A stretch of DNA of 36,070 nt from an uncultured Chthonomonas sp. (GTDB lineage Bacteria > Armatimonadota > Chthonomonadetes > Chthonomonadales > Chthonomonadaceae): contig CAIXIX010000030.1 in assembly GCA_903919615.1 (NCBI GenBank), positions 1 to 36,070 on the forward strand, written 5' to 3'. Below the pieces are notes generated by a model. It saw nothing but the letters and a program-made list of their open reading frames with translations. It had not been told where the DNA came from and did no database searches. The translations under genes were made by a program, and so were the position numbers. Below are positions 5,121 through 15,501 of this stretch, one piece after another. How positions within the stretch are numbered: the stretch's first letter is position 1; every line of letters begins with the position of its first letter.

Positions 5121-6818
5121 CTATTGCGTTGTTATGCTTCCCGTACCAACCACAGGAGAAGGATCTGCCTGAGCCGGCGCCTCCCCTTTCATAACCGGCG
5201 CAATCTCATTCCACAGGCCAGACATAAAATGCGTTAGCTGGGTTTTTCGGATGGCTGTCTCACCAATGTTAACGGGCATAAACCGAACGAAATAGGATGC
5301 CTTACCGGTGTCGTTAACTAGCATCTGATGCATTATAGAACCGCGGATCTGCTTGGCGTCTTGCATTACTGTGCCATTAACAACGTAGCAATACATCATA
5401 AACGTCGGCATTGGCATGCCGACATCCTGAAACGTGGACTCCTGAACTTGCAATGGACCTCGAGGCGTGGTAATCACCGGCCGCGCAACGTCTGTCATGG
5501 GCGTGTTAGCGCCGCGCATGCAAGCGTGAGGATCGTGAAAAGTAGTTCTGCCCGACCCGCAGGTGATGAATACCTGGTTCAGAGATCCGTCGCTGCCTTT
5601 GTAAATGCGATTGATGACGCGCGTCGGGATCAGAGTGTCCGCTTCAGCCTGAGTTATTCGATCCAGCATCGGATCTTGCGCACGCGTGGTTGATGTGTAA
5701 CGCACGCCATCCCACGTGAAATCCATTGGTACCTGGAACGTCGCAATAGGCGTAACCGGGTGGACCGGCCGCAGAATGAACGCACGCGCACCAATACCGA
5801 CGAGAAACAAACAGTCTGTAGCGACAACCAGTGGTAACGCTTTGCGTGTCATCGTGCTAATTGGCCTCGAGGATAGCGTATCTCGAACAGCCGCTTTCAG
5901 GTCGGCAGTGAGACTTTTCAAAACCGACTCTTCCGCAGACAGATCGGAAGTCGATCTAAGTCTGCAGCCGAGTTTCAGCGAAATCCAGGGCAGCAGCACG
6001 GCGAGCAGCAGGAGAGCAGCAAAACCAGAGTAGCCGTGGTAAAAGACGGCTATTTCCCGGTTTGTCAGCTCGCCAATTGCACCCTCAAAAACCAGGCGCA
6101 GAATGTTGATGGCCACACTCAGGGGAATTGCGATTGCAGCGACGATCAGTCTCTTGAACTTATTACCATTAGTCAGAAGCACATAGGCCGCGGAGGCAAC
6201 AAGCAGCGAAAGGATTATATGGGCGCCGGCAGGCAGAGGCTCAACGGCTGAAACAAAAGAATCCAGATGCAGCACCATGCCAGACTCGACAGTGTGTAAC
6301 TGCAGTATGCTTAGGATGCTGGCAGCGAACTGGGACGATCGCTGCTGGATCAGCGGAGCTATCGGGTTAAAAACCTGATCGGGAATGAACGGGATTGCCG
6401 CCGCAATGAGCGCTAACGGTGCAGCCAACTGCCGTGTCCTTTGGATACCCATTGTGACTATACAGGCGCCGACCAGCACAAACACAAATGAGATGGACTG
6501 AATTGCAACAATATCGAGGCGAATTCCGGCAAGCATTAAAAGCAATCCTAAAGCGGCAGGTACGATTCCTATCCAGGTTGGCTTCACCAACGTGGCCTGG
6601 GATTTTGCCTTGCGCCATACATCGATAACGAAGTAGATAGGAACAAAGAGCACAGGAGCATAAAACTTGCCAGGTGCGTTCCAGTCGGCAAGCCAGTGCA
6701 TAAACACGGCGCCATAGAGGACACAGATTAAAACTATCGCCACGACAACCGGGGAGATGAGAATCGGTGTGGCAGAGTGTGGTTTTGGTTCTGAGTCTTG
6801 AGCCATTTTGTAGTCCAT
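5121..6818 (-). CDS. Exosortase/EpsI fusion, apparently lacking the catalytic cysteine
   Basis: 565 aa from the ATG at 6818; an ATG at 6890 and another at 6806 are alternatives. A TATAAT on the minus strand (6837-6832) lies just upstream and argues against 6890. The first 290 residues hold about eight hydrophobic helices typical of the exosortase/archaeosortase fold. Residues 360-550 form the EpsI-type (DUF3485) tail, with FHDPHACMRG containing His428 and Cys433. Exosortases cleave PEP-CTERM-like sorting signals using an invariant Cys, Arg and His. Here the Arg (NILR, Arg241) and the His (FYHGYSGF, His261) are present. The expected ACSG segment reads LPAG (around residues 195-198), so Pro occupies the Cys position. 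I saw no PEP-CTERM tail on other proteins in the window. It may be a catalytically dead or mechanistically changed member tied to exopolysaccharide export. Confidence 0.8.
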   Translation of the reverse strand: MDYKMAQDSEPKPHSATPILISPVVVAIVLICVLYGAVFMHWLADWNAPGKFYAPVLFVPIYFVIDVWRKAKSQATLVKPTWIGIVPAALGLLLMLAGIRLDIVAIQSISFVFVLVGACIVTMGIQRTRQLAAPLALIAAAIPFIPDQVFNPIAPLIQQRSSQFAASILSILQLHTVESGMVLHLDSFVSAVEPLPAGAHIILSLLVASAAYVLLTNGNKFKRLIVAAIAIPLSVAINILRLVFEGAIGELTNREIAVFYHGYSGFAALLLLAVLLPWISLKLGCRLRSTSDLSAEESVLKSLTADLKAAVRDTLSSRPISTMTRKALPLVVATDCLFLVGIGARAFILRPVHPVTPIATFQVPMDFTWDGVRYTSTTRAQDPMLDRITQAEADTLIPTRVINRIYKGSDGSLNQVFITCGSGRTTFHDPHACMRGANTPMTDVARPVITTPRGPLQVQESTFQDVGMPMPTFMMYCYVVNGTVMQDAKQIRGSIMHQMLVNDTGKASYFVRFMPVNIGETAIRKTQLTHFMSGLWNEIAPVMKGEAPAQADPSPVVGTGSITTQ

Positions 6819-6837: not shown

Positions 6838-6991
6838 CCCGGAAGCGTCAAACCATGCTGTGCGCAGGTTGCAGACCTACGACCTGGCATTACTTCTAAT
6901 GTGCCATACGTTCAAGATTCGTGCCCGGCCGTTACCAGTCGAGCCCGAGTGTAATCCTGCTCAAGGTGAATATTCAGGGTAAACTGATATC

Positions 6992-6997: not shown

Positions 6998-7006
6998 GTT
7001 GAAATA

Positions 7007-7201
7007 ATGTCTAGTCCAGGACGAAAAATTGCCCGACAGGTTCAGCGTTCCACTCCCGAAGCCAAGGAGCAGGCAAAGGCTGAGCAGGCCGAGAAGAAAG
7101 AGCAGTCCCTGCGTCAGGATGCCCAGAAGGCGAGCAAGCCAATGGCATCCGGATACAAACCGCTCACTCAGGTAAGACAGCGCAGATCCGGCAACTCCTG
7201 A
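7007..7201 (+). CDS. Small basic, charged protein of unknown function
   Basis: 64 aa, rich in Lys, Arg, Gln, Glu and Ala with almost no hydrophobic residues. The middle (EAKEQAKAEQAEKKEQSLRQDAQKA, about residues 19-43) looks like a single charged helix or coiled coil, and the tail QVRQRRSGNS is basic. There is no cysteine, signal or membrane segment. The perfect AGGAGG at 6992 and a strong hairpin 30 bases after the stop make it a self-contained transcription unit, which is the best evidence that it is a gene. Its composition would fit a nucleic-acid- or ribosome-associated protein or a desiccation/stress protein, but I do not recognise the family. It is divergent from the exosortase-like gene. 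Confidence 0.65.
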   Translation: MSSPGRKIARQVQRSTPEAKEQAKAEQAEKKEQSLRQDAQKASKPMASGYKPLTQVRQRRSGNS

Positions 7202-12858: not shown

Positions 12859-13143
12859 TGATAAACAGTCCCCTTCCAAAAGAACGCCACATCATTGTAT
12901 CGGACGCACGCGTTTCCATACGCCCCGGATTATACCTGAGGGAAAAGGATCAGGGAGAAGGCAATAGCGAAAAGTAAATGTCCGCTTCGTCCATATATTG
13001 CACAGCAGCGAGCGCAGCACTCAACGCGCCTTCCACTAGTTGCTGCGCGCACCTATAGTTAAAGGACTCCCTTGCCGGTATACCGAATAGTGTTGCCAAC
13101 CTCTCCTTATACCATGCCAAACTGTAGCAAAGAAGGGCCTGCA

Positions 13144-15501
13144 ATGAAGAGTTCCGGATTGTGCTCTGGTATTCTCCTCGCCATATGTAGCATCACGAGT
13201 ATTTGCTGCGCTGCCGCACCCCATCGTGATGACATCCCGCGAGCAGTAGTCGAGAGTGGCAAACGCGCGACCGCTTTCGTTGAGACGAAAGAGGCCACTG
13301 GCTCCTCGTTCTGCATAGATTCTGTAGGCATTTTTGTTACTAACAAGCACGTAGTTGGCGACAACACTACCGTAACTCTGGTTCTTAACTCGGGCGAAAA
13401 GGACCAGCGAACCGTTAAGGCGGATGTTATCGAAGAGGGCAAAGATCTCGACCTGGTGTTGCTCAAGACCCAGGGCGGCGGCCCGTACAAAAAGGTGATG
13501 GTCGCCCCCAGCGATGATGACCTCATTGAGACAACTTCTCTGGTAGTGTTCGGTTTTCCCTTCGGCAAAGAGCTAACGTTCGAAGAGGGCAAATTCCCAA
13601 ACGTAACGGTGAGCACCGGGCATGTAACTGCTCTTCGCAAGGATCAAGGCGTACTTGCTAGCATTCAGCTAGATGCCACGGTAACGCCTGGCAGCTCTGG
13701 CGGCGCCGTTCTCGACAGTCAGGGAAGAGTGATTGGCATCATTCAGGCCGCGATAGAGGGCGCACCGATTAACTTCGCCATACCTGTCGACCATTTGCAG
13801 ATGCTCATGTTACGACCCTCTATCCAGCGCACCTCCGGCACAATTCCGCTCGCCCGACAGGCGGACGCCAACACCCTCACGTTCAAGATTGCCCCATATA
13901 ACGGCAAACATGTCGACTACCAGGTCACCTTCACCCTAGATCCGCACACCAATCATTCTCGATCGCTGCCTGTCACTATCGCTGGTGGCGATATTTTTAC
14001 GGTGACAACCGAGCCAACCGGTAAGAGCGCAGGTACCGGTCAACTGCTGATCTCTGCTACCAGCCCGGAAGGAAATTTCAATACGACGCTTGCCGACAGG
14101 GAGATAACCGTTGGTGGCAAGAAAGTCCGGCTGCGCGAAATACAGTCGATCGAGCCCAGCGCAAACGAGCCCGTCCATCTTAGAAACGGCAAGACATTGT
14201 CTGGCACGATATTGGGGCTGAGCGATGTACCCATTACGATTAATGGAATAAAAGCTAAGGTCGACCTTACTCAGAGCCAGACGATCCAAATATCAGACGC
14301 TGGGGCAGGCAGGACGGCATTCAGATTTGAGATTGAGGTCAAGGCGAATGGCAAGAGAGTCGCTGTAACGGAGGATGTGCTGCCTTATGAGCACGACCCA
14401 AATGGGGTGGCCTCTGAGGCGCCTAAGACAAAAACTGCGGATTCTGGAGCCGTCGGGCAATCTAAAGGCGGCATTGCCTTCCGACCGCACATAACGCTTA
14501 CCGTGCCAGGAATGGGCGGATATAGCGGGCTCGCGGTTTACGATATTGATGGAGATGGCCATCTAGATATTCTGGTTACGGCAAACAATGACCTCGTGGT
14601 TCTCTATGGCCACGGCGACGGTGTTACTTTCGATATGGTGCGCTACCCGATAACACAGAAGGGGTCGCATATTCAGGTAGGTGACCTGAATAAGGATGGC
14701 AAGCCGGATGTCGTAGTAAGCTGCAACGACTGTATCCAGGTGCTTCTCAATCTCGGCGCCAGGCGATTTGGCAAGGCGGCGCAGTATAACACAGGCTCGG
14801 GACCCAATGGTATCGCGATTGCAGATTTCAATGGCGATGGGAAGCCGGATCTCGCAGTCGCCCATATCAATTCGAATAACATGGCAGTGTTGTTGAACAA
14901 CGGCGACGGCACCTTCGGTGAGCCAACACGATATGGCACCTCACAGTACGCCATCGGTATCGTTGCTGCAGATTTTAATGGCGACGGCAAGATCGATATC
15001 GGGGTGGGCTGCTATTATGCGGGTGGTGTCAACATGTTCTATGGCGATGGCAAAGGCGGGTTTACGCGCGTTCCCAATGTAAGCCCTGAGGTTGGAGGCG
15101 GCAAACTTGTCTCTGGCGACTTCAAACATGATGGTCATCTTGGGCTAGCTGGGGTCAATTACTGGGGCGGGAATATCGGCATCGTCACGGGAGATGGCAG
15201 GGGCGGGTTCTCCCAGCCACAGCGGATCGGATCGGGCGGATTTCCGAGCCAGATCTCGGTTGGAGATATCAATGGCGACGGCAAACTGGACGTGATTTTC
15301 GGCAGCCAGGCAACGCACGTTTTTTCGATTTGCCTGAATAAAGGCGACGGCACATTTAGCGAGGCGCTCACATTTGAGGTGCCGGATGGCGATGTTCATG
15401 GCGCCGTTATTGGCGACCTCAATGAGGATGGCCGGGCAGATGTGGTCGCGGATGGCGGTAAAGAACACCTGTACATTTTTATTAATGTCGGTAACAGATA
15501 G
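13144..15501 (+). CDS. Secreted trypsin-like serine protease with C-terminal FG-GAP/VCBS repeats
   Basis: 785 aa from the ATG at 13144 (AGAAGGG upstream); earlier in-frame starts lack the signal peptide. Residues 1-25 are a signal sequence. Residues 35-230 are an HtrA-type trypsin fold with His69 in TNKHVVGD, Asp103 in KDLDLVLLK, and Ser185 in TPGSSGGAVLDSQGRVIGI. No PDZ domain follows. Residues 245-445 are an uncharacterised beta-rich segment. From about 450 to the end there are roughly seven FG-GAP-like repeats with calcium-binding D-x-D/N-x-D-G motifs (DIDGDGHLD, DLNKDGKPD, DFNGDGKPD, DFNGDGKID, DINGDGKLD, DLNEDGRAD), one of them degenerate (DFKHDGHLG). The repeats form an integrin-like propeller, probably for surface or matrix binding. 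The branching enzyme follows 32 bases later. Confidence 0.88.
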   Translation: MKSSGLCSGILLAICSITSICCAAAPHRDDIPRAVVESGKRATAFVETKEATGSSFCIDSVGIFVTNKHVVGDNTTVTLVLNSGEKDQRTVKADVIEEGKDLDLVLLKTQGGGPYKKVMVAPSDDDLIETTSLVVFGFPFGKELTFEEGKFPNVTVSTGHVTALRKDQGVLASIQLDATVTPGSSGGAVLDSQGRVIGIIQAAIEGAPINFAIPVDHLQMLMLRPSIQRTSGTIPLARQADANTLTFKIAPYNGKHVDYQVTFTLDPHTNHSRSLPVTIAGGDIFTVTTEPTGKSAGTGQLLISATSPEGNFNTTLADREITVGGKKVRLREIQSIEPSANEPVHLRNGKTLSGTILGLSDVPITINGIKAKVDLTQSQTIQISDAGAGRTAFRFEIEVKANGKRVAVTEDVLPYEHDPNGVASEAPKTKTADSGAVGQSKGGIAFRPHITLTVPGMGGYSGLAVYDIDGDGHLDILVTANNDLVVLYGHGDGVTFDMVRYPITQKGSHIQVGDLNKDGKPDVVVSCNDCIQVLLNLGARRFGKAAQYNTGSGPNGIAIADFNGDGKPDLAVAHINSNNMAVLLNNGDGTFGEPTRYGTSQYAIGIVAADFNGDGKIDIGVGCYYAGGVNMFYGDGKGGFTRVPNVSPEVGGGKLVSGDFKHDGHLGLAGVNYWGGNIGIVTGDGRGGFSQPQRIGSGGFPSQISVGDINGDGKLDVIFGSQATHVFSICLNKGDGTFSEALTFEVPDGDVHGAVIGDLNEDGRADVVADGGKEHLYIFINVGNR

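Follow-up and report, generated by a model that had tools for sequence, protein, structure and literature searches.

An exosortase-EpsI fusion without its nucleophile cysteine in an Armatimonadota bacterium: a probable pseudo-exosortase beside an intact paralog

A large system for sorting proteins by their C-terminus in environmental bacteria is defined by the exosortases; its chemistry and the partner protein EpsI (TIGR02914/DUF3485) are poorly understood. EpsH contains six invariant residues within the motifs C-x-G, N-x-x-R and H-x-x-x-G (Haft et al., 2006; PMC1569441), and mutagenesis of the archaeosortase ArtA of Haloferax volcanii, which belongs to the same superfamily as the protein described here, showed that Cys173, Arg214 and Arg253 are critical (PMC9263693). 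The XrtW-type exosortase-EpsI fusions (NF038142; G000:C86 and G001:C66) have the same domain order and length as our protein and are homologous to it over the full length (40-45% identity). The N-x-x-R, H-x-x-x-G and EpsI HxPxxC motifs are common to both; however, our protein is devoid of the nucleophile Cys and has lost most of the C-x-G motif. With respect to ArtA, the Arg is retained, but a Pro is found where ArtA needs Cys173. No description of a catalytically dead exosortase was found in the literature searched.

The window, that is the whole stretch of 36,070 nucleotides that was analysed, comes from a member of the Armatimonadota of the Chthonomonas family, whose draft genome consists of 614 contigs. 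The ORF call, Pfam and profile alignment place an exosortase/EpsI fusion of 565 residues at positions 5121-6818 of the minus strand. Although the frame opens at 6890, homologs begin near the ATG at 6818, which was taken as M1, in agreement with the numbering of an initial annotation made from the sequence. The multi-pass membrane exosortase domain (5982-6734, minus strand), which is under relaxed constraint, is homologous to the 8-TM EpsH domain, as revealed by Pfam PF09721 (E=1.7e-34) and by a profile from phylum relatives (189 bits). The best NCBIfam matches of the protein were XrtW (3e-22) and XrtD (1e-21), and only the general signature TIGR04178 was passed: 65 bits were obtained with TIGR02602 (cut-off 105.55) and 78.5 bits with NF038142 (XrtW), as compared to 164 bits for an intact paralog from the same genome, both below the cut-off of 425. 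The EpsI/DUF3485-type tail (5124-5756, minus strand), whose constraint was recognised from the paralog comparison and the conserved positions, gave no Pfam match when searched alone. It is however about 56% identical to the tail of the paralog, which scores 27.7 bits with Pfam DUF3485/EpsI, where the cut-off is 26.1, and the alignment shows an intact H-x-P-x-x-C-x-x-G signature, common to stand-alone and fused EpsI (H428-D-P430-H-A-C433-M-R-G436; 5511-5537, minus strand). The initial annotation was thus right in considering the EpsI tail as retained. Its statement that the fold is retained holds at the level of sequence and topology; the structure models, predicted from an alignment with one relative, were unusable (mean pLDDT of 33 for the full protein and 47 for the tail). 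No relatives were found in the PDB or in a scan of viral contigs.

The profile alignment crosses the active site without gaps and sets VEPLPAGAHII of the window protein against VEvpCSGfktL. The motif, canonically E-L-P-C-S-G, has degenerated to E-P-L-P-A-G (6225-6242, minus strand), and Pro196 (codon CCT, 6233-6231) occupies the slot of the nucleophile Cys. Gly198 is still present in the resulting P-A-G, and both the N-x-x-R motif (Asn238-Ile-Leu-Arg241, NILR; 6096-6107, minus strand) and the H-x-x-x-G motif (His261-Gly-Tyr-Ser-Gly265, HGYSG; 6024-6038, minus strand) are retained in the alignment, the residue after His261 being Gly, where Asp is usual. Five of the EpsH invariants are therefore kept, and the Cys is replaced. 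This is what the initial annotation had read, LPAG in place of ACSG with Arg241 and His261 remaining. The Cys is present in 128 of the 132 other exosortase domains aligned from the phylum, a sample selected for resemblance either to the window protein or to a second, dead family described below (C544), and therefore broad but no random census; the four exceptions form one separate family. When 291 genomes of the phylum were searched with the window protein, no second copy with the same lesion was seen among the matches inspected.

An error of assembly or sequencing, which had been considered from the beginning, is extremely improbable. Two compensating indels near the site are imaginable in a 614-contig draft, but the site reads GAG CCT CTG CCT GCC GGC GCC CAT in the window gene and GAG CTG CCA TGC AGC GGA TTC AAA in the intact paralog, so that most residues are several bases away from the paralog each, and the divergence extends over the whole domain. 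No C-x-G was found in any other reading frame at the site; together with the many codon differences, this rules out a single-base or single-indel error. Persistence of cleavage with another nucleophile, be it a different Cys, a Ser or a Thr, is slightly less far-fetched, considering that Arg and His are present, and still very improbable. Cys119, in the GACIV segment that had been suspected of filling the active site from another helix, is also found in the intact paralog and varies across the family; Cys285 is conserved among intact enzymes and Cys32 is family-variable. Cys420, the sole window-specific Cys at a column that is free of Cys in the fused family, sits outside the membrane domain, in the EpsI tail. 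Column occupancy thus rules out a replacement cysteine, and the Ser and Thr that flank the site within the motif are lost too. Mimicry of a PEP-CTERM tail by the segment VEPLPAG-TM-KFKR, which resembles a sorting tail, was rejected, since no sorting-signal model matches it. In another genome, an ORF on the minus strand (152-1201 of L062, G112:C11:8000-9200) encodes an exosortase domain with CSG and Arg intact that carries Asp where the active-site His is expected, an assignment that depends on the alignment.

The two halves of the protein differ in constraint. Fourteen fused relatives were used to define invariant positions, 61 in the exosortase part and 23 in the EpsI part. The window protein departs from 23 of the former and from 2 of the latter, whereas the relatives themselves changed 0-6 and 0-2, respectively. 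When closer family members were used, 39/92 and 5/47 positions were changed (Fisher p=1e-4). The losses amount to 8 of 13 invariants around the Cys and to none of 8 around the EpsI H-x-P-x-x-C, while N-x-x-R and H-x-x-x-G survive; C196P, S197A, F199A, T201I, L202I and H55P are among the substitutions. The exosortase half is usually the slower one (59% identity between the paralog and its G007 counterpart, as compared to 45% for EpsI), but the order is reversed in the window copy, which shares with the paralog 39% identity in the exosortase part and 56% in the EpsI part. Branch lengths of the exosortase part were 4.75 for the window copy and 0.24 for the paralog; those of the EpsI part were 0.83 and 0.13, so that this part is also accelerated, with changes falling mostly at family-variable sites. 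In the conserved third of the columns, 18% of EpsI positions and 41% of exosortase positions differ from the paralog. Identity to the paralog at codon positions 1, 2 and 3 was 0.52, 0.62 and 0.34 in the exosortase part, and 0.66, 0.74 and 0.36 in the EpsI part. In a neutral simulation, 281 codons stayed stop-free in at most about 1% of the runs. Neither the codon-position conservation nor the open frame would be expected of a pseudogene. From these comparisons we conclude that the gene in all likelihood encodes a protein under selection, which is most apparent in EpsI, and that the protease site that depended on the Cys has been lost. The protein has the marks of a pseudoenzyme, namely loss of a catalytic residue, a gene under selection and an intact homolog, its inactivity being predicted.

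A search of the genome, proposed by the initial annotation, yielded both a second, intact exosortase and PEP-CTERM-like tails. The former is the full-length paralog at G000:C86, 45% identical to the window protein, which reads VELPCSGFK at the site; some 50 PEP-CTERM tails score over the cut-off, and this intact exosortase is available to serve them. The initial annotation's proposal of a non-proteolytic member is well supported by the loss of the Cys and of the surrounding motif and by the presence of this paralog, and the sequence data support the interpretation of the window protein as a pseudo-exosortase. The C86 locus is syntenic with a sister genome, with spoT, the exosortase gene and a PPIase-like gene collinear by size and order, and a WecG-type gene lying farther out on C86. 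A contig scan matched only the intact ortholog in this sister genome, a MAG of an uncultured Chthonomonas sp. The EpsI tree places the window copy and its own paralog as sisters (93/90), inside a genus clade supported at 100/100. The flanking genes of the window copy encode an S9 peptidase and an NPCBM alpha-galactosidase. The sister genome has counterparts of both (69% and 64% identity), also at a short distance from one another, but the stretch separating them is occupied by different genes, none of which encodes an exosortase. The sister relationship to the own paralog and the absence of an exosortase at the syntenic site are best read as a lineage-specific ectopic duplication of the genome's own XrtW-like exosortase-EpsI fusion, of which the window gene would be the product. 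Loss from the sister genome is disfavoured, since the tree speaks against it. Horizontal transfer was rejected, considering that the GC content of the gene (0.524) fits that of the window (0.545) and that the tree pairs the gene with its own paralog. Neighbouring exopolysaccharide genes, the typical exosortase setting, were not found adjoining the window gene, nor was an adjacent exosortase gene, and the window contains no PEP-CTERM tails; the suggestion that the protein is a chaperone for exopolysaccharide assembly therefore finds no support at this locus. At the corresponding locus of the sister genome (L111, G001:C68), two large ORFs, DUF1592/DUF1552-like by eye, stand where the window has the pseudo-exosortase. 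A small basic Gln/Lys-rich protein (MSSPGRK...RQRRSGN), encoded at about 7000-7170 of the window on the minus strand, is conserved at the same locus of the sister genome (L111).

The same genome encodes, on contig C544, another exosortase-like protein, which keeps only the Arg (VGLC, VEMR and EPIT at the three motifs) and precedes an EpsI-like gene that lacks His and Cys (G000:C544 10271-11940, minus strand; L036 10271-11940). This dead pair was found in four genomes of the family (G000:C544, G001:C61, G007:C255 and G011:C53; the loci in the other genomes are L080 1498-2604, L081 1501-2523 and L082 1441-2484) and in none of the remaining genomes of the 291 searched. In G007:C255 and G011:C53, an intact exosortase-EpsI pair (H-S/T-P-E-R-C) directly precedes it, an arrangement that hints at hetero-complexes or regulation. 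Members of this dead-exosortase family share 32-43% identity, and this conservation speaks for the retention of dead exosortases more strongly than the window gene does. What the window protein has in common with it is exosortase homology that lacks the Cys, together with an EpsI-like part that is either fused or encoded nearby; in the C544 type, however, the genes are separate, Asn and His are lost, and so are the His and Cys of EpsI, whose motif is intact in the window protein. The latter, which keeps Asn and His and groups with the fused paralog, falls outside the C544 family. As a tentative suggestion, pseudo-exosortases may represent a recurrent functional class of non-catalytic sorting partners or regulators, with catalysis lost at least twice in one family.

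The reading we favour, to which we assign a probability of about 50%, is that the window protein is a pseudo-exosortase that does not cut. Anchored in the membrane, it would carry EpsI or act as a subunit, and would thereby help or modulate the intact exosortase during PEP-CTERM sorting. A duplicate of the exosortase-EpsI fusion would have moved to an unrelated locus and turned into a pseudoenzyme, no longer capable of the acyl-enzyme on Cys through which exosortases are believed to act. Its multi-helix membrane domain would now be a platform in which the Asn/Arg/His framework is preserved, and the EpsI domain, with the His/Cys motif and the conserved positions intact, would be the part under clearest selection. 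Loss of the Cys in a gene that otherwise looks intact points to a probable non-cutting job beside the intact copy. Two observations count against the carrier role: Asn, Arg and His are more than an inert anchor needs, and the EpsI branch is accelerated as well. The same holds for the lack of an ortholog of the window gene in any other genome searched, and for a neighbourhood in which neither EPS nor exosortase genes adjoin it.

Because Arg and His persist, the main rival is a non-cutting regulator whose active half would be the membrane domain, binding PEP-CTERM tails or pairing with the intact paralog. Arg241, His261, Asn238, Gly265 and Ser264 are kept despite the change of 38% of the exosortase invariants, two related genomes have the dead pair immediately after an intact one, and dead paralogs that activate a partner are known, such as the trypanosome prozyme (PMC5201418). 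We consider this rather unlikely, since the nucleophile motif and other invariants are gone, constraint is weaker on the exosortase half than on the EpsI half, and the window gene is not linked to the intact gene. A decaying copy, on which constraint was relaxed once it had arisen, still unbroken and without function, would explain the very long exosortase branch, the moderately accelerated EpsI branch and the occurrence in a single species at an ectopic locus. This is unlikely too: nearly all EpsI invariants are kept, second codon positions are far better conserved than third ones in both domains, and a stop-free frame is improbable under neutrality.

Returning to the pseudo-exosortase reading, a protein that has shed its protease site while its EpsI motif is constrained suggests that EpsI function is separable from cleavage in cis, which is a testable question. 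iRhoms are pseudoenzymes found beside active paralogs. In iRhoms and in prozyme (PMC5201418), as in the window protein, a catalytic residue was lost in a paralog kept beside the active enzyme; their folds are unrelated to that of the window protein, and a regulatory role of the latter may be proposed by analogy. Elsewhere in the window, positions 13072-15501 of the plus strand encode a trypsin-like protease fused to FG-GAP repeats. On another contig of the genome (G000:C54:11329-11553; L037 5787-7094, minus strand), a protein of 435 residues combines an N-terminal membrane stretch, weakly similar to EpsH (E=0.02), with a C-terminal redoxin domain.
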